Below, in pieces: positions 7,779 through 33,700 of a DNA stretch of 61,564 bases. Every line of letters starts with the position of its first letter. Position 1 is the first letter of the stretch. Under the pieces are notes generated by a model. It was given only the letters and a program-made list of their open reading frames with translations. It was not told the origin of the DNA and did not search any database. This stretch comes from a virus, in the IMG/VR virus record IMGVR_UViG_3300042507_004218, positions 1-61,564 of that record. One strand, written 5' to 3'. Position numbers and translations under genes: made by a program.

Positions 7779-7836
7779 GCTTGTCTCCTGCTGCCGGAGC
7801 ATCCGGCTTTGGCCCCCTCGGTGAGGGGGTTTTTTT
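7761..7836 (+). ncRNA. Candidate antisense small RNA over terS start
   Basis: On the plus strand three stem-loops follow one another: 7761-7776 (GCTTGC, loop TTCG, GCAAGC), 7794-7806 (CCGGA, loop GCA, TCCGG) and 7813-7829 (CCCCCTC, loop GGT, GAGGGGG) followed by seven Ts. With the upstream promoter-like site this would make an RNA of about 75 bases ending at a textbook intrinsic terminator. It is complementary to the Shine-Dalgarno site and start codon of the minus-strand terS candidate. No protein can be read from it. The terminator is clear; the RNA itself is inference. Confidence 0.4.
7813..7836 (+). terminator. Intrinsic terminator, plus strand
   Basis: Perfect 7-bp G+C stem (7813-7819 with 7823-7829), 3-base loop, and seven consecutive T at 7830-7836. 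It faces rightwards. No plus-strand protein gene lies to its left for more than 7 kb, so it either ends a short RNA or insulates the divergent region. Confidence 0.8.
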
Positions 7837-7845
7837 ATTTGTGTA

Positions 7846-7965
7846 TGTCAAGAATTTGACAATATGTGTTTGGTTTTTGTAGTAATGTCAAGGATTTGAC
7901 AAAAGTAATTTTGTTTTTGTAGTAATGTCAAAGATTTGACAAAAGCAGTGTGGTTTTTGTAATTT
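7846..7965 (+). repeat. Three 40-bp direct repeats with TGTCAA/TTGACA palindrome
   Basis: Exactly 40-bp periodicity: palindromes at 7846-7861, 7886-7901 and 7926-7941, each TGTCAA-N4-TTGACA, followed by an A+T-rich segment ending in GTTTTTGTAGTAA (GTTTTTGTAATTT in the third). TTGACA is also a perfect -35 hexamer, so the units could be promoter/operator elements or iterons of an origin. The region is markedly A+T-rich compared with its surroundings and sits between the divergent late and early modules. Confidence 0.75.
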
Positions 7966-8194
7966 AATTTTGTAAAAAATGCGTAGTGTGGTTGTGGTTT
8001 CGTGTTCATATAGCGTCGCTACCTCGCTGCACAGCTTGGGGGCTCCCGGGTAGGGTGGGGTCAGCAGTAGGGGCTAGGGGAGCACGCTGAAGGGGGGTTG
8101 AGGGCATATGTGAGAGGGCCGAATCCTCTCGGCGACGCCGCACGCACTGCGGCATTTTGGTAATGGGACACGATGTCCCCATTGGAGTAGCAAC
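7966..8194 (+). other. Non-coding leader between repeats and first early gene
   Basis: I see no gene here on either strand. It holds stem-loops at 8112-8130 (GAGAGG/CCTCTC) and 8137-8153 (GCCGCA/TGCGGC, followed by ATTTT), then the 8164-8180 hairpin of the recurring family just before the ribosome site. The purine-rich stretch 8040-8110 has no obvious feature. Confidence 0.5.
8164..8180 (+). promoter_or_regulatory. Leader hairpin, GGGGACA family, copy 1
   Basis: TGGGACACGATGTCCCC: stem GGGACA (8165-8170) and TGTCCC (8174-8179), loop CGA. It is followed by ATTGGAGTAGCAAC and the ATG of the 147-residue gene at 8195, so the stem ends about 4 bases before the GGAG ribosome site. Confidence 0.7.
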
Positions 8195-8638
8195 ATGAAC
8201 AAGCAATCCCTTTTCCGTGCTTTCGACGCCTACGCTGTGGGTTCGCAGAATCTGGTGGAAACCCTGCGCAAGGCAGCCGTCGAAGCGGGTTTCAAGACCC
8301 TCGAAGACTGCAAGCCCGTGGTGACCGAATGGGCTTCGAAGAAGTACGGTGTGCCCCTGGTCGAGTCGAAGAGCCCGCGCAACAAGGGCGAGATGGTGCT
8401 CGACCGCGCGGCAGCGAAGTACGAAGCCGCCAAGAAAGCCGCACAACGCCTGATGGACGCGCTCGGCGGTGACGCTGACGCGCAGGCAAAGCCGGCCAGC
8501 AACAAGACCGAGGGCGTCGAAGTGCCCGCGCATATCGCTGCTCTGGCAGCGAAGCTGGCAGCGGCTTGCCTGGAATACGAGCAGTCGAAGAAGATCGCCG
8601 CGCAAGCGGTGGCCGAGGCTTTCGCTGCCGCGAAGTGA
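8195..8638 (+). CDS. First early protein, Ala/Lys-rich, unknown
   Basis: 147 residues from ATG 8195 with GGAG at 8184-8187. Ala- and Lys-rich and predicted almost wholly helical, with a PVVTEWASKKYGVPLVESKS segment in the middle. No cysteine cluster beyond two isolated Cys, and no signal peptide or membrane segment. I do not recognise the family. As the first gene behind the 40-bp repeats it should be among the first proteins made. The flanking hairpins (one just before the start, one just after the stop) are members of a family shared with other early genes. Confidence 0.75.
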   Translation: MNKQSLFRAFDAYAVGSQNLVETLRKAAVEAGFKTLEDCKPVVTEWASKKYGVPLVESKSPRNKGEMVLDRAAAKYEAAKKAAQRLMDALGGDADAQAKPASNKTEGVEVPAHIAALAAKLAAACLEYEQSKKIAAQAVAEAFAAAK

Positions 8639-8643
8639 TCAAC

Positions 8644-8752
8644 GGGGACACGTTGTCCCCTTTCCGCTACGTCTGTAGCGGCCTGGGTTCGCCCAGGCCA
8701 GTGCGGATGTGATGCGCCCGTCGGGCGCTGCCGTGCTCGGGGCACAGCCCCG
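8644..8752 (+). ncRNA. Five consecutive stem-loops in an intergenic gap
   Basis: The 128-base gap contains, in order: 8644-8660 (GGGGACA/TGTCCCC, family hairpin), 8664-8681 (CCGCTAC/GTAGCGG), 8681-8698 (GCCTGGG/CCCAGGC with TTCG loop), 8714-8728 (GCGCCC/GGGCGC) and 8738-8752 (CGGGGC/GCCCCG, loop ACA). All stems are perfect. There is no T-run, so they are not intrinsic terminators. The next gene's AAGGAG follows at once. A structured leader, RNA stability or processing element, or a small stable RNA are all possible. Confidence 0.55.
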
Positions 8753-8766
8753 TCAAGGAGAGAGCC

Positions 8767-9120
8767 ATGAAAAAAGTAGCAGAAGCCCTGTATCGTGAAA
8801 TCGAGGCCACCGAAGCGCTTGCCGCGGAGTTTGACCACAAAAGGGGTCACTCCGACTGCTGGTCGCAGACGGTGCGCTACGGCGCATCGCTGGCGCCAAA
8901 AGCGTTGGATGAGATAGGCAAGCTCGTCCGGCGCCACAAGGCGCTGGCAGCGAAGCTTGAAGGTGCGCGTGGCGAGTACCGTCTGGTGCTCACCGAGCGC
9001 ATGACCAACCTCCGCGAGGAGGCCTACGGGTGGCTCAACCACCCGGACATCGTGACCGCTTGCGGTCACGATGTATTCCCAGCGTATCAGGCGTTGGAGC
9101 GCGAATTCCAGCACCGTTGA
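8767..9120 (+). CDS. Early protein of unknown function
   Basis: 117 residues, ATG 8767 with AAGGAG at 8755-8760. Charged and helical: MKKVAEALYREIEATEALAA, a DHKRGHSDCWSQTVRYG stretch, then another helix pair. No known motif recognised. Encoded between two hairpin-bearing gaps in the early rightward cluster. A soluble cytoplasmic protein acting on the host is possible but unproved. Confidence 0.75.
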   Translation: MKKVAEALYREIEATEALAAEFDHKRGHSDCWSQTVRYGASLAPKALDEIGKLVRRHKALAAKLEGARGEYRLVLTERMTNLREEAYGWLNHPDIVTACGHDVFPAYQALEREFQHR

Positions 9121-9134
9121 GCGTAGCGGCGAAT

Positions 9135-9184
9135 GGGGACTGCGTGTCCCCATTGCCAGTGCGCTTGGAGCCTGCGACGCAGGC
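9135..9184 (+). promoter_or_regulatory. Leader hairpins before 55-residue gene
   Basis: Family hairpin GGGGACTGCGTGTCCCC at 9135-9151, followed by CATTGCC, then a second stem GCCTGC (9170-9175), loop GAC, GCAGGC (9179-9184). The ribosome site GAGGAAG follows before ATG 9207. Confidence 0.65.
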
Positions 9185-9206
9185 AGCGTGCTATCGAGGA
9201 AGCAGC

Positions 9207-9374
9207 ATGAACTTCAAGACCGCGATCCGCGCCGCTTGGCGCGACCAGGAGATCGCCCGCCTGATGGGCGTGGCGATGAAGAAGCAAGCCCGCAAGGGCA
9301 AGGCACCTTCGCACAAGGTGCTGCCGAAGCCTGCTGCGCAGGCGCAGGCTGCGAAGAAGGGAGGCAAGCAATGA
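9207..9374 (+). CDS. Small basic early protein
   Basis: 55 residues from ATG 9207 (GAGGA upstream), MNFKTAIRAAWRDQEIARLM followed by a Lys/Ala/Pro tail. The first 25 residues form an amphipathic helix; the rest is strongly basic and probably disordered, as in small nucleic-acid-binding proteins. Its TGA overlaps the next ATG (ATGA at 9371). An in-frame extension upstream runs through the leader hairpin and is not favoured. Function unknown. Confidence 0.65.
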   Translation: MNFKTAIRAAWRDQEIARLMGVAMKKQARKGKAPSHKVLPKPAAQAQAAKKGGKQ

Positions 9375-9529
9375 TCGACCAACTCAAGGCGATCCGAAAG
9401 GCGCTGCGCGAGCAGCGCAAGGCCGAAGACGCAGCGGCACGCCGTGCCGCACAGGCCAAGGCCCGAGCCCAGGAGCGCGACTCCTGGGCAGACTTCAAGA
9501 CCCTCTGCGCCCCACTGAAAGGGCGTTGA
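9371..9529 (+). CDS. Small charged coiled-coil early protein
   Basis: 52 residues, MIDQLKAIRKALREQRKAED then Arg/Ala-rich, ending LCAPLKGR. One long basic helix is predicted. It is translationally coupled to the preceding gene by ATGA overlap. No family recognised. The pair may form a small basic operon with a nucleic-acid or host-protein target; this is a guess from charge only. Confidence 0.6.
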   Translation: MIDQLKAIRKALREQRKAEDAAARRAAQAKARAQERDSWADFKTLCAPLKGR

Positions 9530-9544
9530 ACCAAGGAGAGCACC

Positions 9545-9778
9545 ATGCACAACTACGTCACCTCCGTCGGCTACGACGGCAAGCTCTGGCTCCTGCTGCG
9601 CGAGGACGCCACACAAGGCGTCTACGAAGGGCAGACCGTGCGCAGCTTCAGGGGCGAGAGCTACGTCATCACGGGCGGCAGACCCCCGCACAAGCCCGAG
9701 AGCACGGGCAAGGTGTGGACTGAGGCAGGCGGGGAGTACTACCCCAGCGTCTTCGGCCTGCGCTGGGTCAGAGCGTAG
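9545..9778 (+). CDS. Small beta-rich early protein, unknown
   Basis: 77 residues, ATG 9545, AAGGAG upstream. Sequence MHNYVTSVGYDGKLWLLLRE continues with alternating strands and a PPHKPESTGKVWTEAGGEYY segment, so a small beta fold is likely. No signal or membrane segment. I do not recognise it. It is the last gene before a 517-base gap carrying several regulatory-looking signals. Confidence 0.7.
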   Translation: MHNYVTSVGYDGKLWLLLREDATQGVYEGQTVRSFRGESYVITGGRPPHKPESTGKVWTEAGGEYYPSVFGLRWVRA

Positions 9779-9790
9779 GGCGGAGCCGCG

Positions 9791-9812
9791 CCGGGGTAGA
9801 AATCTACCCCGG
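9791..9812 (+). promoter_or_regulatory. Leader hairpin, GGGGTAG family, copy 1
   Basis: Arms CCGGGGTAG (9791-9799) and CTACCCCGG (9804-9812), loop AAAT. Perfect 9-bp stem, 12 bases after the previous stop. Two shorter relatives occur at 10932 and 11974. Confidence 0.65.
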
Positions 9813-9818
9813 CTAAAT

Positions 9819-9835
9819 GGGGACAGGTTGTCCCC
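9819..9835 (+). promoter_or_regulatory. Leader hairpin, GGGGACA family
   Basis: GGGGACAGGTTGTCCCC, perfect 7-bp arms with loop GGT, 6 bases after the GGGGTAG hairpin. Confidence 0.65.
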
Positions 9836-9846
9836 CAATCGTATGA

Positions 9847-9862
9847 TGTCAAACGTTTGACA
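9847..9862 (+). promoter_or_regulatory. Perfect 16-bp palindrome, operator-like
   Basis: TGTCAAACGTTTGACA reads the same on both strands. Its arms are identical to those of the three 40-bp repeats at 7846-7941. TTGACA at 9857-9862 could serve as a -35 box, but no good -10 lies 17 bases on. Confidence 0.6.
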
Positions 9863-10013
9863 AAGAAAAGGGGTGGTGGACACTTGTCCCCGCCCCACTA
9901 GGCGTTGGACACCACCTTGGACGCCCTAAGTCCTTGATCCACTTGGTTCTTTTATTTATTTATATATATAAGTATAGTATAGTAAGAGAAGAGAAGAGCT
10001 GGAAGATTTCTTT
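9863..10013 (+). other. Gap with degenerate hairpin and A+T-rich tract
   Basis: No gene seen. A degenerate family hairpin lies at 9876-9891 (GGACA/TGTCC). An A+T-rich stretch at 9949-9983 is made of TTTATTTATT, TATATATATA and TATAGTATAGTA, followed by purine repeats GAGAAGAGAAGAG. It stands out sharply in this G+C-rich genome and could be a promoter or a DNA-unwinding element. Confidence 0.4.
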
Positions 10014-10130
10014 ATGAACAAGCAACAGCCGGAAATCTTTTTCAGAAAAGAAATTCTTTCCGTCTTTCCCAGAAGTGTGACCTCGCTCCTGAGAAGACAT
10101 CTGGACGCAAACGAGAAAGATGAATGCTGA
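10014..10130 (+). CDS. Possible 38-residue protein
   Basis: ATG 10014 with GGAAG 9 bases upstream opens a frame MNKQQPEIFFRKEILSVFPR, then SVTSLLRRHLDANEKDEC and TGA. Its base composition is lower in G+C than its neighbours. Basic and helical. There is no family evidence; the case rests on a plausible ribosome site and amino acid composition that looks protein-like. It could equally be chance. Confidence 0.35.
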   Translation: MNKQQPEIFFRKEILSVFPRSVTSLLRRHLDANEKDEC

Positions 10131-10211
10131 CAACGCCAAGTGCCGTCCAAACTACTGTCCAGTGAGCCTTTGGTCTGGGACAATCCCGGCTTTTGGTGGA
10201 CGCAAACCTTA

Positions 10212-10255
10212 CACGTGGCTTACGCCACGTGCCCCAACGGGGACTGCGTGTCCCC
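10212..10255 (+). promoter_or_regulatory. Two leader hairpins before Zn-ribbon gene
   Basis: First hairpin CACGTGGC (10212-10219), loop TTAC, GCCACGTG (10224-10231). Second, GGGGACTGCGTGTCCCC at 10239-10255, is identical in sequence to the hairpin at 9135-9151. The GGAG ribosome site of the next gene is at 10285. Confidence 0.65.
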
Positions 10256-10295
10256 TTTCAACCCGGCGCTCACGCGCCTCAACCTGGAGAAAAAA

Positions 10296-10916
10296 ATGGC
10301 TTCGACAGGCTACTACGACCGCTTCCTGCACCTCGGCGTCACCGCCGACTGCCCTGGCTGCGGGCGCACGCTGCGCCTGGGGGATTTCCGAGGGGCGCAT
10401 AGCCGAAGGCTGCGCCCCATATGCGTGCGCTGCGCCCCTGAGAAGGGGCTGGAGGACATGACTCCAGACGAACGTCTGGCGGCGCTCGACAATCAGCGTC
10501 CCTACGTGACGCCCACCAGGGTGGCGCGGCTGAATGCCGCTGACGCGGCGGCTGAGACGCATCGCAGGAAGGCGGGCGCTTTGCAGCGTCGCAGGGCGCA
10601 GCGCACGCGTAACTGGGCGCCCGTGCTGCGGGCGCTGCAGGCGGAGCACACATGGGCGCAGGGGCATGCTCAATTCCCGGGCTCCGCTGCCTGGGGAGAA
10701 TTCTTCGCAGCGTACGCTGCTGCCTTGAGTGACGCGATCCGGCGGGTACGTGCTGCTTCGTCAGGCACGAGTCGGCTCGTGCCGCTGCCTGAGCAGACCG
10801 ACCCCATGCACTGGCTGTATGACGAGACGGTGCGCTCTTTGAAGAAACTCTACGCTGCCTGTGCGCCCATCCCCGGACGCCGGCTGTACCGAGATCCGCT
10901 GTTTCTGCAGGCGTGA
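10296..10916 (+). CDS. Early protein with CxxC zinc ribbon, unknown
   Basis: 206 residues from ATG 10296, chosen because GGAG lies 7 bases upstream and because a longer in-frame opening from 10140 runs through the conserved leader hairpin. CPGC (near residue 19) and CVRC (near 44) would hold one zinc. The rest is Ala/Arg-rich and helical, with a PGWxx-free, Trp-containing C-terminal domain (MHWLYDETVRSLKKLYAAC). No enzyme motif recognised. Zinc binding is inferred from the cysteine pairs. Possibly a nucleic-acid-binding or host-takeover protein. Confidence 0.7.
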   Translation: MASTGYYDRFLHLGVTADCPGCGRTLRLGDFRGAHSRRLRPICVRCAPEKGLEDMTPDERLAALDNQRPYVTPTRVARLNAADAAAETHRRKAGALQRRRAQRTRNWAPVLRALQAEHTWAQGHAQFPGSAAWGEFFAAYAAALSDAIRRVRAASSGTSRLVPLPEQTDPMHWLYDETVRSLKKLYAACAPIPGRRLYRDPLFLQA

Positions 10917-10931
10917 GCCTGCGTTTGTAAC

Positions 10932-10949
10932 GGGATAGAAATCTACCCC
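10932..10949 (+). promoter_or_regulatory. Leader hairpin, GGGGTAG family, copy 2
   Basis: GGGATAG (10932-10938), loop AAAT, CTACCCC (10943-10949), one mismatch. It is followed by ACATTGAAGAAGGAGAAGTGAG and ATG 10972. Confidence 0.6.
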
Positions 10950-10971
10950 ACATTGAAGAAGGAGAAGTGAG

Positions 10972-11160
10972 ATGCAAGAAGTTTGGTTCATACGAGGCGA
11001 AGCCGTCGATGGGCTGCGCCATATGCTCTTCGCGACCAAGATGGCTGCGGAGATCTACGCTAGAAAACTCTTCCCCGATGAAGACCCGGACAGGCGCTAT
11101 GCGCGTATCTACTGCATGCCTGTCTGGGAAGAACGCGACCTCAAAGGAACCAAGAAATGA
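10972..11160 (+). CDS. Small early protein, unknown
   Basis: 62 residues, MQEVWFIRGEAVDGLRHMLF and on, ATG 10972 with a strong AAGGAG site. Compact alpha/beta composition with several aromatic residues. Not recognised. The stop overlaps the start of the next small membrane peptide (ATGA), so both are coupled. Confidence 0.7.
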   Translation: MQEVWFIRGEAVDGLRHMLFATKMAAEIYARKLFPDEDPDRRYARIYCMPVWEERDLKGTKK

Positions 11161-11237
11161 AGATGCACCCCGACGACGCTCTGCTGCTCGCTGTCTGCGT
11201 AGCAGTTGCAGCACTGCTGGTTTTTGGTATCATTTGA
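11157..11237 (+). CDS. 26-residue single-span membrane peptide
   Basis: ATG 11157 overlaps the previous stop. The reading is MKMHPDDALLLAVCVAVAAL then LVFGII and TGA. It is a short polar head followed by one uninterrupted hydrophobic segment of about 18 residues, as in tiny phage membrane proteins. The coupling and composition favour a real gene; function is unknown, and inner-membrane insertion is inferred. Confidence 0.5.
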   Translation: MKMHPDDALLLAVCVAVAALLVFGII

Positions 11238-11291
11238 GCAGGCACAAGCCTGCGCCCAACCGTCGCCCCTGCGGTCCAGGGGCAAACAAGC

Positions 11292-11308
11292 GGGGACATG
11301 ATGTCCCC
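11292..11308 (+). promoter_or_regulatory. Leader hairpin, GGGGACA family
   Basis: GGGGACATGATGTCCCC, perfect 7-bp arms, loop TGA. It is followed directly by ATTGAAGGAGAAGCAAGC and ATG 11327: the clearest example of the hairpin plus Shine-Dalgarno module. Confidence 0.7.
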
Positions 11309-11326
11309 ATTGAAGGAGAAGCAAGC

Positions 11327-11932
11327 ATGAAGACCATCAACAAGCCCACCCCCACTGCGCTCTTCAAGGCAGCGCTCGACAGCGTCAAGCGTCGGGCCAT
11401 CATCGCGCAGCACAAGCGGGTGCTGTATGCCGCCTTCGTGCGGCTCCCGCAGGTCAAGCCCATCTTCGTCACGCTGGCCAAGGCGGCGCTGGGTGGTGAG
11501 CATCCCTGGGTCAACACCTCGGAGTACAGCGCCGAGGTGTCCCTCGGCCTGACGCTGCGCGAGCTGGAGTCGTTCAAGGACGAGCGCTTGACGAAGCTGG
11601 TGTCTGCCTTCGCGGGGGACGAGGGGACCGCCACCACGACGGACTACACGTACGACCAGCCCAACCGTGACTACCGCTTCACGATGGAGATCGAAGCTCC
11701 GCTGGCCGACCTGCTCGACGAGCAGCGTCGGGGCCTGCGCCTGACCGCTGCCGAGCAGCGCTCGCTGGCGTGGCTGCGCGAGCAGGCCCCGTACGAGGTG
11801 CCGCGCACCGTGCTGCTCACCGTGGGGATCTACGCCTACGTCAAGGCAGACAGCGCCGCCTGCCGCATCGAGGTCGTGGGCATCGAGGAGGAGGTGATCA
11901 AGAAGGAGATCAAGAGGATCGTCTGCGCCTGA
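11327..11932 (+). CDS. Early protein, unknown, 201 residues
   Basis: ATG 11327 with AAGGAG. Helical N-terminal part (LFKAALDSVKRRAIIAQHKR), a central region with TATTTDYTYDQPNRDYRF, and a C-terminal half with LTAAEQRSLAWLREQAPYEV then a short hydrophobic strand. No signal peptide. I do not recognise the family. A longer in-frame opening from 10967 exists but overlaps two other genes and the leader hairpin. Function unknown. Confidence 0.75.
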   Translation: MKTINKPTPTALFKAALDSVKRRAIIAQHKRVLYAAFVRLPQVKPIFVTLAKAALGGEHPWVNTSEYSAEVSLGLTLRELESFKDERLTKLVSAFAGDEGTATTTDYTYDQPNRDYRFTMEIEAPLADLLDEQRRGLRLTAAEQRSLAWLREQAPYEVPRTVLLTVGIYAYVKADSAACRIEVVGIEEEVIKKEIKRIVCA

Positions 11933-11944
11933 CTGCGTCAGGTA

Positions 11945-11991
11945 GCGCCCGCTGAGCGGGCGCGTGAGCCCCCGGGGTAGAAAGCTACCCC
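11945..11991 (+). promoter_or_regulatory. Two leader hairpins before 69-residue gene
   Basis: GCGCCCGC (11945-11952), loop TGA, GCGGGCGC (11956-11963), then GGGGTAG (11974-11980), loop AAAG, CTACCCC (11985-11991), the third member of the GGGGTAG family. ATTCACCCCAAGGAGTAAGC and ATG 12015 follow. Confidence 0.65.
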
Positions 11992-12014
11992 ATTCACCCC
12001 AAGGAGTAAGCAAC

Positions 12015-12224
12015 ATGCCATCCTGGCACCAACAAAACGCATTCCGACGCGACGGTTTCCCTAAGCTGTCGCACCCCACCATGTGGAGCAGCTACAACCT
12101 GCAGGGGCATCTCAGCGTCATGCGCCACGAATCACGCGAAGCGTGCATGACCTACTGCGCCAAGACGGGGGATGTCCCTCTGTCGCCTGACAACCACACC
12201 CTCGCAACGAAGAAGGAGAAGTGA
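12015..12224 (+). CDS. Small early protein, unknown
   Basis: 69 residues from ATG 12015 with AAGGAG. MPSWHQQNAFRRDGFPKLSH, then SVMRHESREACMTYCAKTGD. Two Cys and several His suggest possible metal binding but no recognised motif. It ends one base before the GP88-family ATG (TGACATG), so it is co-translated with it. Confidence 0.65.
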   Translation: MPSWHQQNAFRRDGFPKLSHPTMWSSYNLQGHLSVMRHESREACMTYCAKTGDVPLSPDNHTLATKKEK

Positions 12225-12225
12225 C

Positions 12226-12930
12226 ATGCTATCCATCGACACCAACGCCAAGACCGTCAAGGGTCAGAAGTACGGCTACATGACAGGCGTCCTCTACCTG
12301 TCTCCGTACAACAAGTCCGGGCACAACGTCTGCCCCTTCGCCGCCATCGCCCAGTGCCACGCGCCCTGTCTCGATACTGCTGGCCGGGGCGCGTTCGACT
12401 CCGTGCAGCAGGCACGCCTGCGCAAGACGCAGATGTTCTTCGAGGACCGCGACGCGTTCATGGCCCTGCTGGTGGAGGACATCATGCGCCTGGAGCGCAC
12501 GGCCCAGGCCCGGGAGCTCGTCCCCGTGTGCCGCCTCAACGGCACATCCGACATCAAGTGGGAGCGCATCGCTGTGACCGTCAACGGCCACACTTACGCC
12601 AACATCTTCGAGGTCTTCCCGTTCATGCAGTTCTACGACTACACGAAGACGCCTGGGCGTGACGTAGCGCACATCCACAACTACGACCTGACGTTCAGCT
12701 ACTCCGGCGTGCCCGACTTCCAACGCTACGTGCGATACGCCAAGGAGAGCGGCATGCGCATCGCCGCCGTGTTCCGCAAGCGTGACGAGATCCCAGACAA
12801 GTTCCTCGGCATGGCGTGCGTTGACGGTGACGACAGCGACCTGCGCTTCCTCGACCCCCCGGGTGTCGTCGTGGCGCTGTATGCCAAGGGCCGCGCACGC
12901 CTGGATACGTCTGGCTTCGTCGTCGGCTGA
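12226..12930 (+). CDS. GP88-family phage protein
   Basis: 234 residues. The opening pattern KTVKGQKYGYMTGVLYLSP, SGHNVCPFAA, CLDTAGRGAF, TQMFFEDRDAFMALLVEDI and RLNGTSDIKWE matches the GP88 family first named from mycobacteriophages. The conserved cysteines and the RLNGTSD motif are intact. Biochemical role is not established in my knowledge. Here it is in the early cluster with DUF932, a pairing seen in other phages and plasmids. Start ATG 12226, AAGGAG upstream. Confidence 0.85.
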   Translation: MLSIDTNAKTVKGQKYGYMTGVLYLSPYNKSGHNVCPFAAIAQCHAPCLDTAGRGAFDSVQQARLRKTQMFFEDRDAFMALLVEDIMRLERTAQARELVPVCRLNGTSDIKWERIAVTVNGHTYANIFEVFPFMQFYDYTKTPGRDVAHIHNYDLTFSYSGVPDFQRYVRYAKESGMRIAAVFRKRDEIPDKFLGMACVDGDDSDLRFLDPPGVVVALYAKGRARLDTSGFVVG

Positions 12931-12941
12931 CAACATGCAAC

Positions 12942-13044
12942 GGGGACATGTTGTCCCCGTGTCTTTTACTATCAACAAATCCCCGCAGTGTGCTACACTG
13001 CAGCCGCGCCTCGGGTTTTCAGGGGCACATCGGGCCAAAGGCCC
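12942..13044 (+). promoter_or_regulatory. Hairpins and possible promoter before DUF932 gene
   Basis: Family hairpin GGGGACATGTTGTCCCC at 12942-12958. A sigma-70-like site follows: TCAACA at 12972-12977, 16-base spacer, TACACT at 12994-12999 (4 of 6 matches each). A last hairpin GGGCC (13032-13036), loop AAA, GGCCC (13040-13044) is followed by ATTGAAGGAGAAAGCAA and ATG 13062, the same leader tail as at 11309. The hairpins are clear; the promoter is weak. Confidence 0.5.
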
Positions 13045-13061
13045 ATTGAAGGAGAAAGCAA

Positions 13062-14051
13062 ATGGCTCATCAAATCGACACCACCTCCCGCGCCACCGCT
13101 TCGTACGCCTCCACCCGCAAGGAGTGGCACGGCCTGGGGCAACTCATGCCCGCTGGCGCCGACCTCGACGCCTGGGCCCAGGCGGCGAACATGGACTACA
13201 AAGTCCTCCGCGCCTACCCGCGCTACGCCGTGGAGCGCATCAACCCCGAGGCTTCCCACATCCCTGCGAGCGCCTTGCGTCAGGTCGAGGACAAGGTCGT
13301 GCTGTTCCGCAGCGACACCCGCGCGCCCCTGGGCGTGGTCAGCGACGGGTACAAGGTCGTGCAGCCCCGGGAGGTGCTGGAGTTCTTCCGCGAGTGGGCG
13401 GACGCAGGCGGGCTCACCATCGAGTCCGCAGGCGTGCTGTTCGGGGGCAAGCGCTACTTCGCCACGGCTCGCCTGGGCGAGGCAGTGGCCGTGGACGGGG
13501 GCCAGGACCGCATCCTGCCCTACGCCCTGCTCTCCACCTCCGCTGATGGCTCCCTGGCCACCGAGGGGCGCTGGACGACCGTGCGCGTGGTGTGCAACAA
13601 CACCCTGAGCATGGCCCGGGAAGGCGCCACAGCCTTCCGCCTGACGCACCGCAGCGCATGGAAGCCGGAGAAGTTCAAGACCATCATCGAGGACGCCCAG
13701 CACGAGTTCGCCTCCTTCATGGAGACGAGCCGCAAGCTGGCGGCAATCAAGGTCGAGACGAAGCTGGCGGAGGAGATGACGACGCTGCTGCTCACCACAG
13801 CCGCGCGTGATGCGGACGCCGCCAAGGAGAGTGCCGGGTTCCAGCGCATCATGGGCCTGTTCCAAGGCACCGCCAAGGGCGCACTGCTGGAGTCGTCGCG
13901 TGAGACTGCCTGGGGGTGGCTGAACAGCGTCACCGAGTACGTGGACCACCATGCGCGTGCTCGCAACGACGAGAACCGCACCGCCAGCGCCCTGTGGGGG
14001 CAGGGCGACGCGCTGAAGAATCGGGCAGTGGAGATCGCACTGGAGGCGTAA
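13062..14051 (+). CDS. DUF932-family (phage/plasmid-like) protein
   Basis: 329 residues. STRKEWHGLGQLMPAG at the start, APLGVVSDGYKVVQPREVLE, then VVCNNTLSMA and FRLTHRS are the usual landmarks of the DUF932 / phage-plasmid-like protein family. The family is widespread on phages and plasmids; its biochemical role is not established to my knowledge. Length is normal and all landmarks are present. ATG 13062 with GAAGGAG. An operator-like palindrome and a promoter follow the gene. Confidence 0.85.
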   Translation: MAHQIDTTSRATASYASTRKEWHGLGQLMPAGADLDAWAQAANMDYKVLRAYPRYAVERINPEASHIPASALRQVEDKVVLFRSDTRAPLGVVSDGYKVVQPREVLEFFREWADAGGLTIESAGVLFGGKRYFATARLGEAVAVDGGQDRILPYALLSTSADGSLATEGRWTTVRVVCNNTLSMAREGATAFRLTHRSAWKPEKFKTIIEDAQHEFASFMETSRKLAAIKVETKLAEEMTTLLLTTAARDADAAKESAGFQRIMGLFQGTAKGALLESSRETAWGWLNSVTEYVDHHARARNDENRTASALWGQGDALKNRAVEIALEA

Positions 14052-14085: not shown

Positions 14086-14134
14086 TGTCAACCCCTTGAC
14101 AACATGAATCGGGAGGCCCACAATCGGGCCTCCC
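14086..14134 (+). promoter_or_regulatory. Palindrome, promoter and hairpin before 14157 gene
   Basis: TGTCAA-CCCC-TTGACA at 14086-14101 shares its arms with the 40-bp repeats. Its TTGACA (14096-14101) is followed after exactly 17 bases by CACAAT (14119-14124), a 4-of-6 -10 box. Across that -10 lies a perfect inverted repeat, GGGAGGCCC (14111-14119) and GGGCCTCCC (14126-14134). A repressor bound at the palindrome would block the -35 box. The promoter call is inference. Confidence 0.55.
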
Positions 14135-15368: not shown

Positions 15369-15850
15369 CTACGATCACCATTGACCGCGCCGTCGTTGAG
15401 CAGGCGCTGGAGGCGTTGGAGTACGCGCAGCAAGATCGCGAATGCCCAAGCACAACCCGTCAGGCAATCGCCGCCCTCCGCGCCGCCCTGGCGCAGGAGC
15501 AGGACGAGCCAACTGGTAAGCAACCCTTACAGGTTGAGTCGGTGGCAACAACTCAACAACCCGCTGGCGAAACGCCCCCGTCCGACTATCGGCGCGGCTA
15601 TTGGGACGGATTCAACATCGGCAAACGCGAGGGGCGCATTGAGGCAGAAGACGCCTTGGCGCAGCAGGATGAGCCGGAAACCTGCACTTGGTATCAAGAC
15701 GGCGACAGCGACTCAGGCGTTTACGCCACCTCATGTCGGCACTACTTCAACCTTGAAGATGGTACGCCAGAGGACAACAAGATGCAGTGGTGCTGCTACT
15801 GCGGCAAGAAGCTGGTGCAGGAACTGATTACGGAGGGCGACGATGAGTGA
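15365..15850 (+). CDS. ALEALE/LRAALAQ modular protein 1
   Basis: 161 residues. The N-terminal module reads VVEQALEALEYAQQD, then AIAALRAALAQEQDEP. This helical hairpin is repeated in the next three genes. The second half is different: SDYRRGYWDGFNIGKREGRI and a C-terminal CRHYF...WCCYCGKK segment with possible zinc ligands. Proteins built from this module plus a variable partner domain are common in phages and prophages of Burkholderiales. Role unknown. ATG 15365 overlaps the previous stop. Confidence 0.7.
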   Translation: MTTITIDRAVVEQALEALEYAQQDRECPSTTRQAIAALRAALAQEQDEPTGKQPLQVESVATTQQPAGETPPSDYRRGYWDGFNIGKREGRIEAEDALAQQDEPETCTWYQDGDSDSGVYATSCRHYFNLEDGTPEDNKMQWCCYCGKKLVQELITEGDDE

Positions 15851-16127
15851 CCTACGAACCGCCGCCCAGCAGGCGCTGGAGGCGTTGGATGAGGCCGACA
15901 CGTTTCACCGCAACCTGTCAGATCAGCGCGCGCGCAGGCTTGCCGCAATGGCCGCCCTCCGCACCGCCCTGGCGCAGCAGGATGAGCCGACACTCACCAT
16001 CGAGCGCCTGCGCGATGCGCTCGTGGCGTCTCGCATCATCCCGCCCGCAGCGGTCGAAGACCCGGACGAATACGACGATGGAGTGACTCTGCATCGCATC
16101 GAAGCACTGCACAGGAGGATCGCATGA
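15843..16127 (+). CDS. ALEALE/LRAALAQ modular protein 2
   Basis: 94 residues, MSDLRTAAQQALEALDEADT, then AMAALRTALAQQDEP followed by a variable 40-residue C-terminal part. Its first 33 bases of coding DNA are almost identical to those of the next gene (15848-15880 against 16129-16161), a recent duplication or conversion. Overlaps both neighbours. Function unknown. Confidence 0.65.
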   Translation: MSDLRTAAQQALEALDEADTFHRNLSDQRARRLAAMAALRTALAQQDEPTLTIERLRDALVASRIIPPAAVEDPDEYDDGVTLHRIEALHRRIA

Positions 16128-17074
16128 ATGACCTACGAACCGCCGCCCAGCAGGCGCTGGACAGCATCAACGAACTGTTTGCCGCCGAACAGTCAGAAGG
16201 CGGAGAACGTGGCGGACATATCCGCACACCGGCCACGCGAGAGCATTTGGTGCGTGTAGCTCAGGCTCGCAAGGCTTTGCATGAAAGCTGCGGCGCCCTC
16301 CGCGCCGCCTTGGCGCAGCGGGCCGAGCTGGTGGAGCCGGTGGAGCCGGTGGATGTGGGGCTGCTTGAGTACCGAGGCAACAGCGTGGCTTTCATCCATC
16401 AAAAAATGACGGCATATCGAACCGGGATTGATGTCGCGTGGGATGCCTTCAGAGCAAAGGGACTGCATCCTGACGGCAAAACGTCATTGGCCGACATGAT
16501 CGCAAAGTACACCGCCCCACCGCAGCAGGCCGAGCCGGCGCAGGGGCCAGAAGGTATGGTTGAGTTCCTGGCCGATCTGCAACGCAGTCGGACGAAGTAC
16601 CCGAAGAACAGGCGCATGTTCGACGGCCTGATGGGCGAGATTGATGAGTTGCGCCGCGCCTACGCTGGCGATGGCGACATTCGTGCCGAAGCATTCGACG
16701 TTGCCGTGTGTGCTTTCCGCATTGCGACCGAAGGTGACGCAGGCGGTAACGCCCGGTTGGAGCAGGCCGAGACGGATCATGAAACCCGAGCCGAACTGGC
16801 GGAGCAGCAGGTTGTGCAACTTGCCGAGGAGCGCGATCACTACCGTAACCTGTGGCAGAAGGCGCAGCAGGATGAGCCGCAACCCATGCACCCTGAACTA
16901 CGAAAGATGTGGGAGGACCACTTCGACAAGTGTTTCAGGGCTATCCCTGTGCCGGAGCAGGCCGAGCCGGTGCAAATGCACCCGTCTCAATTTGCAGAAA
17001 TGATCAAAGGTAAGGAGGCCATGACCGGCATCCCGGTGTACTGGGCCGAGTGGCCGAACAAGGAGGAATCATGA
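16124..17074 (+). CDS. ALEALE/LRAALAQ modular protein 3, long
   Basis: 316 residues. The same N-terminal module (MNDLRTAAQQALDSINELFA, then ALRAALAQRAEL) is joined to a longer region with an AFRAKGLHPDGKTSLADMI segment. Next comes a helical part with DLQRSRTKYPKNRRMFDGLM and FDVAVCAFRIATEGD, and a coiled coil QQVVQLAEERDHYRNLWQKA. Repeated QAEP/QDEP linkers separate the parts. No catalytic motif is recognised. Stop overlaps the next start. Confidence 0.65.
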   Translation: MNDLRTAAQQALDSINELFAAEQSEGGERGGHIRTPATREHLVRVAQARKALHESCGALRAALAQRAELVEPVEPVDVGLLEYRGNSVAFIHQKMTAYRTGIDVAWDAFRAKGLHPDGKTSLADMIAKYTAPPQQAEPAQGPEGMVEFLADLQRSRTKYPKNRRMFDGLMGEIDELRRAYAGDGDIRAEAFDVAVCAFRIATEGDAGGNARLEQAETDHETRAELAEQQVVQLAEERDHYRNLWQKAQQDEPQPMHPELRKMWEDHFDKCFRAIPVPEQAEPVQMHPSQFAEMIKGKEAMTGIPVYWAEWPNKEES

Positions 17075-17562
17075 CTGATCTGAGAGCCGCTGCCCAGCAG
17101 GCGCTGGAGGCGTTGGAGAAGTACCGCAAGATGATGTTTGTGGAAGCAGGGTGTCGTTTTGGCGAAGGCGATGCAGCCATCACCAACCTCCGCGCCGCCT
17201 TGGCGCAGCAGGCCGAGCCGGTGGCGGGAAAGGTTGTAGCGTGGGGCGTGTTCGCCAACATCGACGGCGAATGGCAGTTGCAGCACCCCGTGTTCGCGGG
17301 TGACGAGCAGGGCAAGGTGAACGCTGAGTTTGAGCGCGCATCGTACAGCGGCCCGCAGCCGCTAGAAGTGCGGCCTCTCGGTGTCGTGACTGCTACGGCA
17401 CGGCAGGCCGAGCCGGCGCAGGAGCCGGTGGCGACGCTGATCGCTCAGCGCGATGCGCTGCTGGAAATGCTGAAACTGGCCCGATCCATCATCGGCCACC
17501 CGGATGACGCGCACTCACAGATGATCGACGCCGCCATCAAGGCGGTGGAGGAGGAAGCATGA
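17071..17562 (+). CDS. ALEALE/LRAALAQ modular protein 4
   Basis: 163 residues from ATG 17071 behind AGGAGG; the earlier in-frame ATG at 17050 lacks such a site. Module MTDLRAAAQQALEALEKYRK, then NLRAALAQQAEPV, a middle beta-like domain (VVAWGVFANIDGEWQLQHPV), and a helical end with DAAIKAVEEEA. The last eight residues resemble the end of the next gene (DAIKAVEGE), again showing shuffling of short ends. Function unknown. Confidence 0.65.
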   Translation: MTDLRAAAQQALEALEKYRKMMFVEAGCRFGEGDAAITNLRAALAQQAEPVAGKVVAWGVFANIDGEWQLQHPVFAGDEQGKVNAEFERASYSGPQPLEVRPLGVVTATARQAEPAQEPVATLIAQRDALLEMLKLARSIIGHPDDAHSQMIDAAIKAVEEEA

Positions 17563-30519: not shown

Positions 30520-30745
30520 GCGGGGGCAGGGCTTCTTCGTTCCCGCGCTTGACCTGGACGCCATGCGAGAAGCGGGACTGCTGGCTGCAGTCCCGCTGCG
30601 CTTGAAGGACGCCCGCGCTACCTACGGCATCAGGGACGGGCAGCTTGGGGTGCTGTTCTACCGGAAAGCCCCTGCACGGCCTGAGCGAGACGAATCTTCG
30701 CCTGACGCGCCCGGTCAAGCTCCGCCCGCTTCCGATCAGGCGTGA
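30488..30745 (+). CDS. Small phage protein with antisense-overlapping tail
   Basis: 85 residues from ATG 30488, overlapping the primase end by 32 bases. The core PSYFPWDKLERGQGFFVPAL and ATYGIRDGQLGVLFYRK forms a compact small domain seen behind phage primase genes. The last 28 or so residues are Pro/Ala/Ser-rich and lie antisense to the end of the giant leftward gene (30630-30745). The tail probably arose by read-through of an older stop. Function unknown. Confidence 0.7.
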   Translation: MPSYFPWDKLERGQGFFVPALDLDAMREAGLLAAVPLRLKDARATYGIRDGQLGVLFYRKAPARPERDESSPDAPGQAPPASDQA

Positions 30746-33700
30746 GGGTGGACGCCCGCACCTGACGTTCGAACTCGGTGATCTGCCCCATCTGCTCCCT
30801 GAACGCGCCTGCCACGGACGCCAGGGATAGCTCGTCGGCCTTCTCCTCGGCGTAGCGCTTGGCCTGCTCGGGCTTGTTTTCCGCGAGCATGCGCTTGTAG
30901 GTCTCCTGCACCTGACGGACCTTGTTCATGCGCTCGTAGACGAGGTCGATGATGCCGCTGGCGTCCTTGGGCTGGAACAGCGTGCCGACCAGCGGGAGGT
31001 CTGACGGGCGCTTGGTGGCAGGCGCAGGGCCCTCGCCAGTACCGGCAAAGGGCGCACTGAGCGCGGAGATGAGCGCCATGCCCATCTGGCCGGTGTAGCC
31101 GCTGATCAGGAACTCCAGCTTGATGGGGGAGAAACCCGTCATCTCGCCCACGGTTTTGGCAAGCTCCGTGGTGCTCTCCCGCGCACGGTACCCAGGTTCG
31201 ATGGCTTGCTCCCGAGCGGACTCGATGTCGCGCCCGGTGTAGGCCGACACCCCGAAGCCAACCTCCAACAGCGGCTTGACGGCTGCAGGGATCATGTAGG
31301 ACGAACCGCCAGGGATCATCTGCTGCACGATGTGCTTCAGCGCCTTGAGGGCTTCTTCGCCGCCTTCCTCGTTGGACAGGGTGTTCACGATGGCCTCGGG
31401 CAGCGCCTTGAAGATGTAGCCCAGTTCGAACGGGATGGGCAGGCGGATGGGCTGCTCGACGCCCGGGAGCGACACGAACCAGTTCCCGTACTTCTCCTCG
31501 GGCTTGGCGTTCTTGTACGCCTCGTCGTCCTGCATCGCCATGGCGTAGGCAATGCTCAAACCGAACAGCATCATGCCACGGGCAATCAGCTTCTTGCGCA
31601 CGCCCAGGCGCTCGTTCATCGGCATCTGGCCCGTGAACGACCGGTACAGAACGTCCAGGCCCTGAATCTGCGCGTTGAAGAAGGGGATCAGCGTGCTGGC
31701 CATGTGCAGGCTGGGCGACAGCCCGCGCCGGCTGAAGTTCATGGACTCCAGCGCCCTGTACGTGGCCTCCATCTCCGACAGGCCCTGCTTGAGGTAGTCC
31801 TCATACTGAGCGCGGCGAGTGAGCGCATCGACCTGAGCTGCCTTGCCCTCCAGATACGCGAGGCCGTTGGTAACGCTCAGCTTGCCCGCCTGCATCGCCT
31901 TGATCATGCGCGACATGTCCTCGGGCATGCCGGTGAAGACCTGACCGCCCGTGATGCCGCGCCGCTCCAGCACCCCTGCCTTGCCGATCTGCTTGAGCGC
32001 ACTCAGTATCGGCACCGTGTTGGAGCCGCTGGCAATTGCGGCTTGCGTAGAGTCCCGGAACAACATCCGTGCCATGTAAACCGGAGACGCCACGATCATG
32101 CGGCGCAGGAAGCGTGCAGGCATGCCCATGACGCGCACGAAGGCCGGGAACATCGTCGGGATGCCCGCCAGACCCTTGACCAGCAGGTCGCTGCTGATCC
32201 CCAACGCCTCAGTGTCCACCACGCCGAAGTGCTCGACGCCGTCGAGCTTGAACGTCACCGCGCCCGCCGGGGCGTTGCCGCCCTTGACCTTGCCAACAGT
32301 GGCGAGCCCGAGATCCTTGAACTCGAACATCAGGTTCTTCATGGCAAGGTTGTGCGTCGCCATGTCGATCAGCATCGAGGTGTTCTGGATGCTGCTGGTG
32401 ATGAAGTCCATGATGGGCTCGTCACCGCCCACAAGCTCCTGCAGATGCGGACTGTCCTTCAGGTTGCCGATGCGGATAGGCGTCTCCTTGCCGATCATGA
32501 GTTCGGCCACGCCGTCGCGTATGCGGTAGTAGGGGATGTAGTCGTTCTCCTGCAGCAGCTCGTTGGCTTGCTCCTTGCTCAGGGCGCCGGTCTGCACGTT
32601 GAAGTTGATCAGGTCGCGGTTGTACTGGTTGTAGATGTCGCGCACTTCGCTGAACGCGTCGCGCAGCACTGGGTTGGCGTCGATCTCGGCCTTGGCGGCT
32701 TTGAAGTCCTCCGGCGTCGGCATGGAGTCCAGGCGGCTCTCCAGGCTGTTCATGCGCTTCGTCAGCACCGTGCGCTGTTCAGCGGACAGCTTCGTGGACT
32801 TGAGTTCGTTCTCGATGCGCTTGATCTCGCCCTGCGCCCACACGCGGCCAAAGTTGAGCGTGTTGTAGCCCACGCGCTCGCCACGGATCGCAGCCATGTA
32901 GAGCGTCGCAAGCTTGTTGGACGCGTCGGCGCTGCCCGCTTCCTTGACCACATCCTTGCGCTTCAGGATGTCGAACGCCTGCTTCAGGTTGGCCCCGGGC
33001 TTGGCCTCGATGAGGTACTCCTTGGTGCCGTCAGGACGAATGATCTCCCTGCGTTCCGGCACGCCGTTCGTGATGGCCTGGGATGTGAAGTGCATCTGCT
33101 GGTCAACCATGCGCAGGTAGTACATCGCCTGCATGGCTTTCGTAGGGTCCGCGCCCGCACGCTTGAGCGCCTCCTCGGTGGGGAAGTACTTGTCGATGAA
33201 CTGCGCACGCCCGCCGATGCCAAGGAAGTTGTCGCGGATCTTGTCGATTACGCCCTTCTCTTTGCCCACCAGTTGATTGGCAACACGTGCTGCGGTGGGC
33301 AGGTTGCGGGAGAAGAGGATTTCTCCCGGCTCCGTACGGGCCTCGGCAGCGGGCGCTGCCTGCCCGCGCATCTCCATCTTCGCTGCACCGAACGCCATGT
33401 CCACGATGCCTTGCGCATCCAGCGTCTTGGGCGGCAGGCCAAACTTCTCCAGTGCGCGCCGGAAGAGCTGTGCGACGCGGCCCAGCCACTGCCCCAGCAC
33501 ACCCTTGGTCTCGGTGGGCTTGACGCCTGCGTTGACGGCCTCCTCGATGGCATAGGCCAGCAACTCGTCGTTGACCTGACCGGCCGGCGTCTCCGCTGCC
33601 TCCACACGTGCGCGTGCGGCCTGGGCCACCCGGGCCTCGGTACTGCCGTCGGTCTTTTTCTCCCAGGACTTGACGGCGTTGACCAAGGCGCTGTACTGGG

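Follow-up and report, generated by a model that had tools for sequence, protein, structure and literature searches.

Palindromes in the early-gene gaps of a phage, proposed as operators of a regulator encoded by the first early gene

The window analyzed here, i.e., the complete stretch of 61,564 bases from an uncultured phage (IMG/VR virus record IMGVR_UViG_3300042507_004218), carries short palindromes that recur between its early genes, which raises the question of whether these repeats act as hairpins in mRNA leaders or as double-stranded DNA sites, and which protein would recognize them.

Palindromes in the gaps of the early region

Ten intergenic near-palindromes of 17-18 bp are located within positions 8164-12958; coding DNA holds none, and no other copies with one mismatch or fewer occur in the window. 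When up to 3 mismatches were allowed, the GGGGACA pattern showed 10 matches as compared to 3.75 expected (0 of 100 shuffles reached 10), and the GGGGTAG pattern showed 6 matches in the whole window as compared to 0.08 expected. As described in the initial annotation, the palindromes are confined to early-gene gaps: all ten are located in gaps, while the non-coding share of 8100-13061 is only 24% (P ~7e-7). Each gap > 30 bp in this interval contains at least one palindrome. The features of the region are as follows.

7986..8030, + strand: conserved block GTGTGGTTGTGGTTTCGTGTTCATATAG upstream of the array, common to phages with differing palindromes; a candidate early promoter or other fixed signal
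8164..8180, no strand: palindrome 1, TGGGACACGATGTCCCC, 14 bp ahead of the start codon of the proposed regulator gene
8195..8638, + strand: first early gene (147 aa), proposed to encode the cognate DNA-binding regulator from its placement in relatives and the covariation of its N-terminal domain with the palindrome arms
8644..8660, no strand: palindrome 2, GGGGACACGTTGTCCCC, 5 bp past the stop codon of the same gene
9135..9151, no strand: palindrome 3, GGGGACTGCGTGTCCCC
9793..9810, no strand: second-type (GGGGTAG) palindrome, GGGGTAGAAATCTACCCC
9819..9835, no strand: palindrome 4, GGGGACAGGTTGTCCCC
9876..9892, no strand: weak, degenerate copy read from the sequence, GTGGACA-CT-TGTCCCC, with a shorter N2 spacing
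10239..10255, no strand: palindrome 5, GGGGACTGCGTGTCCCC, same sequence as palindrome 3
10932..10949, no strand: second-type palindrome, GGGATAGAAATCTACCCC, with one mismatch (A/C)
11292..11308, no strand: palindrome 6, GGGGACATGATGTCCCC
11974..11991, no strand: second-type palindrome, GGGGTAGAAAGCTACCCC
12942..12958, no strand: palindrome 7, GGGGACATGTTGTCCCC

All seven positions initially listed for GGGGACA-N3-TGTCCCC hairpins are real, but three copies carry an arm mismatch, i.e., T/C at 8164 (first bases TGGGACA; the equivalent site in relative L040 is perfect, GGGGACACGATGTCCCC) and T/T at 9135 and 10239 (GGGGACT..TGTCCCC). The invariant part is therefore GGGGAC-N5-GTCCCC. The three GGGGTAG copies were likewise recovered, but the first starts at 9793 (nested in a longer palindrome, 9790-9813) and not at 9791, and the copy at 10932 is imperfect; the degenerate copy at 9876 is also present, with its spacing shortened. 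In other phages, those with a type B regulator (see below), GGGGTAG-type sites represent the main array; a type B gene was looked for in the window itself and was not found. A hairpin neighboring the palindromes keeps its loop, CGGTY, while its stem changes, as expected of an RNA element.

The repeat unit had also been thought to include a shared Shine-Dalgarno tail, with the hairpin directly in front of the ribosome site. However, ATTGAAGGAGAA adjoins a palindrome only at 11309 and is 86 nt off at 13045. The ribosome site of gene 12226, AAGGAGAA, has no palindrome ahead of it, and AAGGAG is present at 18 of the 82 genes called genome-wide. The tail lies outside the repeat unit and represents an ordinary ribosome site, the distance of which varies. 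As the distances from palindrome to next start codon are 14, 18, 22, 23, 40, 55, 103, 106, 460 and 485 nt, placement directly before a ribosome site holds for 4 of the 10 palindromes and not for the remaining ones. The broader idea of a shared control element ahead of many early genes was supported, and orthologues of the gene after palindrome 6 are mostly preceded by the palindrome of their own phage.

Palindrome arms and first-gene proteins in related phages

In related metagenomic phages, the equivalent gaps hold palindromes with other arms (i.e., GGGGAG, GGGAAG, GGGTCAC, TTGCGACA, GGGGTG, GGGGGAAC and GGGGTAG across relatives), and the sites of different variants take forms such as GGGGAC-N5-GTCCCC, CGGGTCACNGTGACCCG and GGGGTAG-N4-CTACCCC. 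Inside each phage, the arms are uniform and spacer length is nearly constant; sites measure 15-22 bp, with half-sites of approx. 6-9 bp, and occur in 4-14 copies per phage, in early gaps only.

The first early gene sits between palindromes 1 and 2 and has the same placement in relatives; its product combines a type A N-terminal domain with an exchangeable C-terminal helical module. N-terminal distance predicted half-site distance (Mantel r = 0.52, P = 5e-5), also when the C-terminus was allowed for (partial Mantel r = 0.50, P = 5e-5), while the C-terminal module added nothing to the prediction of the arms (r = 0.00 to 0.03); these statistics correct only partly for shared descent. The stricter Mantel run excluded L095, the palindrome of which rests on two uncertain copies. 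Among type A proteins, one residue rule was observed in 13 of 13 lineages, with K..QR or K..ER accompanying GAC half-sites and T..RD accompanying GGGT half-sites; in the protein of the window, the residues concerned are K81, Q84 and R85. Moreover, L054 and L057 are 91.7% identical as far as the array; beyond this point, they differ in first gene and palindrome alike.

Blind tests were performed in both directions. From gene to palindromes, 63 loci showed the gene together with an array of at least 3 copies and 8 loci showed the gene with fewer than 3 copies (most of them cut by a contig end); none of 123 shuffled loci showed an array of at least 3 copies. A copy was present on both sides of the gene in 32 of 40 tabulated loci. 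The upstream copy usually precedes the start codon by 15-36 bp, or by 91-102 bp in most GGGTCAC-group loci, and the downstream copy mostly follows the stop codon by 2-7 bp. From palindrome to gene, a DNA scan with the second palindrome of the window identified 9 contigs with at least 2 copies, and in all 9 the interval at the array start encodes a protein of the same family (147-155 aa, type B). Profile comparison showed that types A and B are alignable only over the C-terminal 40 aa.

Searches of Pfam, PHROGs and PDB with the first-early-gene proteins found no significant match, tblastn queries from three members, covering types A and B, matched none of 50,697 named phage records, and neither two scans of bacterial genome contigs, covering a cellular or prophage source, nor a scan with the 10296 protein found a confirmed relative. 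The AlphaFold model of the first early protein was middling (pLDDT 75, pTM 0.48), and fold comparison revealed no significant match to a known DNA-binding fold (weak KH-, MarR- and RTP-like rows; best E 1.0, Z ≤3.6), which is not evidence of a new fold. At the DNA level, the region resembles named phages only in pieces (2% covered), and phage DSL-LC04, related through its large terminase and DUF932, showed no such array in the stretch examined. The paired palindrome-protein system occurred in no named phage record searched, and no description of it turned up in searches of open-access literature on intergenic palindromes in early phage regions.

DNA operators as compared to other explanations

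Overall, these data suggest that the product of the first early gene (8195-8638) is probably a phage-specific regulator and that the palindromes are its operators in double-stranded DNA. The sites have the symmetry of a DNA duplex, as pairs of spacers were identical in 77 cases and reverse complements in 74 (null 35.4, sd 4.7); this equal frequency is consistent with duplex DNA as the recognized form and speaks against an RNA loop. Several observations count against the operator reading, among them the middling structure model and the fold comparison described above. The spacer of sites with the GGGGAC half-site is N4 or N5 depending on the phage, and L048, L105 and L106 have both lengths, a difference that a rigid dimer would have difficulty accommodating. 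In addition, the sites of some phages include a minority from another family, namely three GGGGTAG sites in the window and GGGTCAC sites in the L054 group; binding of these by the phage's own protein would be unexpected.

The initial annotation preferred an RNA hairpin-plus-leader module and mentioned a DNA operator only as an aside, which was the better guess. An mRNA leader hairpin, serving as site of a translational regulator, 5' end protection or 3' end stabilizer and possibly bound by the first gene's product, would be consistent with the GC-rich 7-8 bp arms and small loops, with the location of every copy in a transcribed gap and with the terminator-like copy at 12942. The proposed check for compensatory stem changes did find them, between phages at equivalent positions, but was not decisive, because a palindromic DNA operator recognized by a dimer passes equally. 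Spacer orientation and N-terminal coupling favor DNA instead, as do the arm mismatches, which are G-U in 4 of 13 cases and thus show no bias to this pair. Moreover, loop and strand features are not conserved, the distance between palindrome and ribosome site varies, and the uniformity of arms within a phage would require a partner that reads stem sequence; the neighboring hairpin, with its fixed loop and varying stem, does behave like RNA. We thus consider an RNA element unlikely. It also appears rather improbable that the operators belong to another protein, with the first gene linked and varying for another reason. A more constant motif, TGTCAA-N4-TTGACA (also in L059 and, less perfectly, in L046), does suggest a second regulator, and binding by the first gene's product is what we infer, but the residue-level coupling, the joint change in L054/L057 and both blind tests single out the first gene.

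REP palindromes with a RAYT transposase form units in which a gene is bracketed by recurring intergenic palindromes that match its type, and the palindrome-flanked gene described here resembles such a unit. The palindromes could accordingly be recombination linkers or mobile elements, with the first gene as mobilizing enzyme and early cassettes being exchanged; 26% of homology ends are no more than 30 bp from a palindrome, versus 8.7% at random, and foreign palindromes seem to move with cassettes. However, homology ends would cluster in gaps anyway, none of 34 family members showed a transposase domain in Pfam searches, including the Y1 (HUH) domain of RAYT, and the sites are symmetric, lack an asymmetric head and are tied to gaps of the early operon. 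This explanation is therefore very unlikely, and the mobile leader cassette suggested initially was not supported as such, even though homology breaks between phages cluster near palindromes. Least plausible is a role of the palindromes in partition, replication or packaging, with the first gene's product binding them. N15 and similar plasmid-like phages have a comparable arrangement of dispersed palindromic sites with a cognate protein, but the sites studied here follow early-gene starts and stops over 5 kb, and no ParB-like domain was found in the first early protein.

Under the operator reading, the regulator would probably be a dimer with one N-terminal domain per arm; a helix at approx. 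residues 76-91 may read the arm, and the C-terminal helical module would join the subunits. Operators would flank the regulator's own gene and occupy all of the larger gaps among the first early genes. As the sites fill these gaps without a recognizable promoter (none could be placed consistently at the sites in the window), the bound regulator would most likely block elongating RNA polymerase, i.e., form a roadblock as at mycobacteriophage stoperators. Accumulated regulator would then shut down the early operon and itself. An integrase gene was looked for and not found, and nothing thus points to a role in immunity of the cluster A repressor kind.

Comparison with known systems and implications

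The promoters of the N4 virion RNA polymerase are short hairpins (5-7 bp stem, 3-nt loop) before early genes. The repeats studied here are also short, hairpin-like and located before early genes; unlike N4 promoters, they have variable spacers in either orientation and no fixed sequence after the hairpin. N4-type promoters appear unlikely, as sequence searches, which could miss remote homology, did not recognize a virion RNA polymerase in the 2701 aa protein; its matches were limited to LPD38 and phrog_18222, with no hit in PDB. Intrinsic terminators (GC-rich hairpin plus T run) were rejected, as only the 12942 copy passed the scan of the transcribed strand.

Stoperators of cluster A mycobacteriophages (L5, Bxb1) are numerous dispersed sites of a phage-encoded protein, mostly away from promoters; their consensus changes from one relative to another in step with the protein sequence (PMC6550527). 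Similarly, each phage here has many copies of one site with no consistent promoter-like site at them in the window, and the motif varies with the protein. Conversely, stoperators are asymmetric 13 bp sites that face one way relative to transcription, are present in 20-30 copies per genome and serve temperate phages as binding sites of a helix-turn-helix immunity repressor (PMC6550527), while the sites here are palindromic, longer, limited to the early region and have spacers in both orientations; the proposed partner is the first early gene product, which has no significant family match in Pfam, PHROG or PDB searches, in phages with no integrase found. In the parts of the cluster K accounts drawn on here (PMC3203893, PMC12699233), extended start-associated sequences (ESAS) are inverted repeats that precede many non-structural genes. 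Their consensus varies among subclusters, and they have 17 bp half-sites, variable spacers of 4-13 bp and usually a 13-bp start-associated sequence alongside; their authors considered DNA-binding sites likely and hairpins in mRNA improbable. As far as these parts go, both systems have inverted repeats, differing between relatives, ahead of many non-structural genes, but the half-sites here are shorter, spacer length is nearly constant within a phage, and a partner protein is proposed where the ESAS accounts name none. Incidental inspection of the displayed palindrome flanks showed no start-associated sequence GGGATAGGAGCCC.

More tentatively, the system may represent an undescribed class of regulators with interchangeable N-terminal recognition and C-terminal modules, each paired with its own operator array at the borders of early gene cassettes; specificity would diversify rapidly in apparently lytic phages, and cassettes with foreign operators (GGGGTAG here) would escape. 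The recognition modules would comprise at least types A and B, which show no detectable sequence relation, and probably two more. Rapid diversification could perhaps arise because each protein would also shut down early genes in any co-infecting relative that has identical operators.

These results provide a likely function and partner for repeated palindromes of a kind commonly recorded without an explanation (e.g., cluster K ESAS), and, judging from sequence, mark a family of small proteins without recognized relatives as probable sequence-specific DNA-binding proteins. At least 8 arm sequences are paired with their proteins among natural variants, and one helix shows a two-way residue rule, which makes the recognition code directly testable. 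Specificity changes fast here, and no integrase was detected in these phages, which prompts the question of what makes lytic phages diversify their operators.

Palindromes between the early genes

Ten palindromes were found between 8164 and 12958 of the window (61,564-base IMG/VR virus record; GC content approx. 60.7%), seven of the form GGGGAC-N5-GTCCCC and three of the form GGGGTAG-N4-CTACCCC, some of them with a single arm mismatch. As the initial annotation had stated, the palindromes are confined to gaps between early genes (10 of 10), and no gap of more than 30 bp within this stretch is without one. Palindrome 1 follows the upstream control region and precedes the start codon of the putative regulator gene (8195-8638, plus strand; hereafter the first gene), palindrome 2 sits just past the stop codon of this gene, and the remaining copies are between later early genes. 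No promoter consistently placed at the palindromes was found in the window. The tail that had been described as part of the unit is plain Shine-Dalgarno sequence at a variable distance from the palindrome, and is thus not part of it.

Features of the window and of related viral contigs (L handles, with positions in the contig)
Left part of window, minus strand: portal and large terminase genes
7803-8194: divergent control region, with plus-strand early genes after it
7846-7861, 7886-7901, 7926-7941, 9847-9862, 14086-14101: palindrome TGTCAA-N4-TTGACA
7986-8030; L040 4129, L046 5266, L059 6805, L113 6650, L129 3107, L151 3020: conserved block GGTTGNGGATTAGTGTTCA
11265-11283; L046 9950; L049 3971, 4446; L053 4243; L062 6407; L099 11975: second intergenic hairpin family
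Relatives, arm and spacer forms: GGGGGACA-N2, GGGGGAGA-N3, GGGGAGA-N2, GGGAAG-N4
Relatives, further forms: CGGGTCAC-N1, GATTGCGACA-N2, GGGGGAAC-N1, AACTAGGAC-N5
Relatives, form from a later scan: CGGGACA-N2

Three of the TGTCAA-N4-TTGACA copies belong to 40-bp tandem repeats within the divergent control region, where the second arm, TTGACA, resembles a -35 element. L059 has a similar motif there and L046 a less perfect one, which indicates that this operator-like element has been conserved as the arrays diversified. Block GGTTGNGGATTAGTGTTCA precedes the array in phages with dissimilar palindromes, some of them distant, and may be an early promoter or a fixed signal of another kind. Elsewhere in the window, 30630-38735 (minus strand) encodes a protein of 2701 aa (phrog_18222) that has LPD38, a large polyvalent protein associated domain, close to the C-terminal end, and three successive early genes at 15843-17562 start with near-identical residues, (S/N/T)DLR(T/A)AAQQALE/D, a sequence likeness that suggests a duplicated N-terminal segment.

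Relatives were retrieved from viral contigs by scans with the GP88 protein (12226-12930) and the DUF932 protein (13062-14051). Many of the closer ones have 4 to 14 palindrome copies in the equivalent region, with arms that differ from group to group. Within each phage, arms and spacer length are near-invariant (deviant spacer length at only a handful of sites in 30 phages). Orthologues of the gene at 11327 have the local palindrome upstream in about ten phages. Overall, arm changes are thus concerted and symmetric. In L040 (5245-5595), a 333-bp cassette is duplicated in tandem with its palindrome; GGGGACGCATTGTCCCC and the following flank are identical at 5245 and 5578.

Coupling of the first gene to arm sequence

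Flanked by palindromes 1 and 2, the first gene encodes a product of 124-170 aa, depending on the phage. In nearly all uncut loci among L079-L126, which were retrieved from viral contigs with alignments of two N-terminal types (A and B), the recurring palindrome brackets this gene. Type A pairs with GGGGAC, CGGGAC, TTGCGAC, GGGTCAC and GGGGTG, and type B with GGGGAG, GGGAAG and GGGGTAG; L048 and L053 have two more N-terminal types in the equivalent position. The C-terminal 40 aa occur in several versions, common to different palindrome types. Sequence identity between L054 and L057 is 91.7% as far as the array; there it breaks off at once, in the first gene as well as in the palindrome.

Among 26 and 23 non-redundant phages, the N-terminal part was associated with the palindrome (Mantel r = 0.52; P = 5e-5, the lowest value attainable with 20,000 permutations), and the C-terminal part made no contribution once the N-terminal part was allowed for. 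The association also held inside type A alone (r = 0.58, P = 3e-4). In 13 of 13 type A lineages, half-sites are GAC where the protein has K..QR/K..ER and GGGT where it has T..RD (P = 0.0008, Fisher's exact test, which ignores shared descent; about two independent changes were counted). These residues belong to the helix that follows the predicted beta hairpin. L108 belongs to the T..RD/GGGT group despite 44% identity to the window protein as compared to 32% to the T..RD protein of L117.

No partner gene for the three GGGGTAG copies (9793, 10932, 11974) was found in the window. If a palindrome family always comes with a partner gene, one would be expected in any phage whose main array is GGGGTAG. 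A scan with the GGGGTAG DNA pattern alone (one mismatch allowed in further copies) yielded nine contigs that have two or more copies each, and all nine have a type B gene (147-155 aa) in the interval at the array start; the three type B proteins compared have a YKRGYAK motif in the corresponding helix. Foreign sites also occur in L054, L055 and L113, where CCGGGTCACGGTGACCCGG, a foreign site as are the GGGGTAG copies in the window, lies upstream of the 11327 orthologue and the phages' own array is GATTGCGACA. Cassettes thus appear to travel together with their operators. Breaks in homology between phages are overrepresented near palindromes (26% vs 8.7%), although homology would end in gaps anyway.

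DNA site or RNA hairpin

The initial annotation favored an RNA hairpin, with compensatory stem changes as the proof to be sought. Symmetric arm changes were indeed observed in relatives; however, they do not decide the matter, as they are expected of an RNA stem and a palindromic operator alike. Unlike arm symmetry, the spacer does decide between DNA and RNA. Since transcription runs one way through all palindromes, an RNA loop would have a single reading sense, whereas a duplex site has none. Among 436 within-phage copy pairs, spacers were identical in 77 and reverse-complementary in 74; with spacer columns shuffled 2000 times, the reverse-complementary class had 35.4 pairs (sd 4.7, maximum 51). 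Corresponding sites of very close phages even have the spacer flipped in place (AAAT at L062 3420 vs ATTT at L064 6782). Flanks are A/T-rich on both sides, and G-U accounts for 4 of 13 arm mismatches, i.e., no bias. The equal spacer orientations and the lack of a G-U bias favor a DNA site. In contrast, a neighboring hairpin, with its CGGTY loop kept and its stem variable between phages, has the pattern expected of an RNA element in these phages; this second family (loop CGGTC or CGGTT; stems GCCCCTG, GCCGCTG, GCCACTG and GCCGGTG, differing by phage) looks like a true RNA element.

Proposed operator function of the array

A protein bound at the palindromes would hinder the elongating polymerase rather than initiation, and this roadblock would also act on the regulator's own gene; the site layout and the lack of a consistent promoter at the palindromes argue for a block of elongation. 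Stoperators of cluster A mycobacteriophages work by hindering elongation (PMC6550527), and the roadblock proposed here from anatomy would work in the same way. As eight records, some of them possibly incomplete, yielded neither a tyrosine nor a serine integrase, we speculate that a role in early-gene timing or in competition between co-infecting phages is likelier than lysogenic immunity.

The first-gene family had no significant match in Pfam, PHROGs or PDB sequences and no match in 50,697 phage records, and scanning bacterial and archaeal genomes twice gave no confirmed relative. AlphaFold modeled the window protein (mean pLDDT 75) as two helices, a beta hairpin and a further helix, followed by a loose linker and a helical hairpin at the C-terminus, with no significant match among solved structures. 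Overall, systems in which a phage regulator co-varies with dispersed operators are known; what is new in these phages is that the sites are palindromic, the protein modules are unmatched and the specificities number eight or more.
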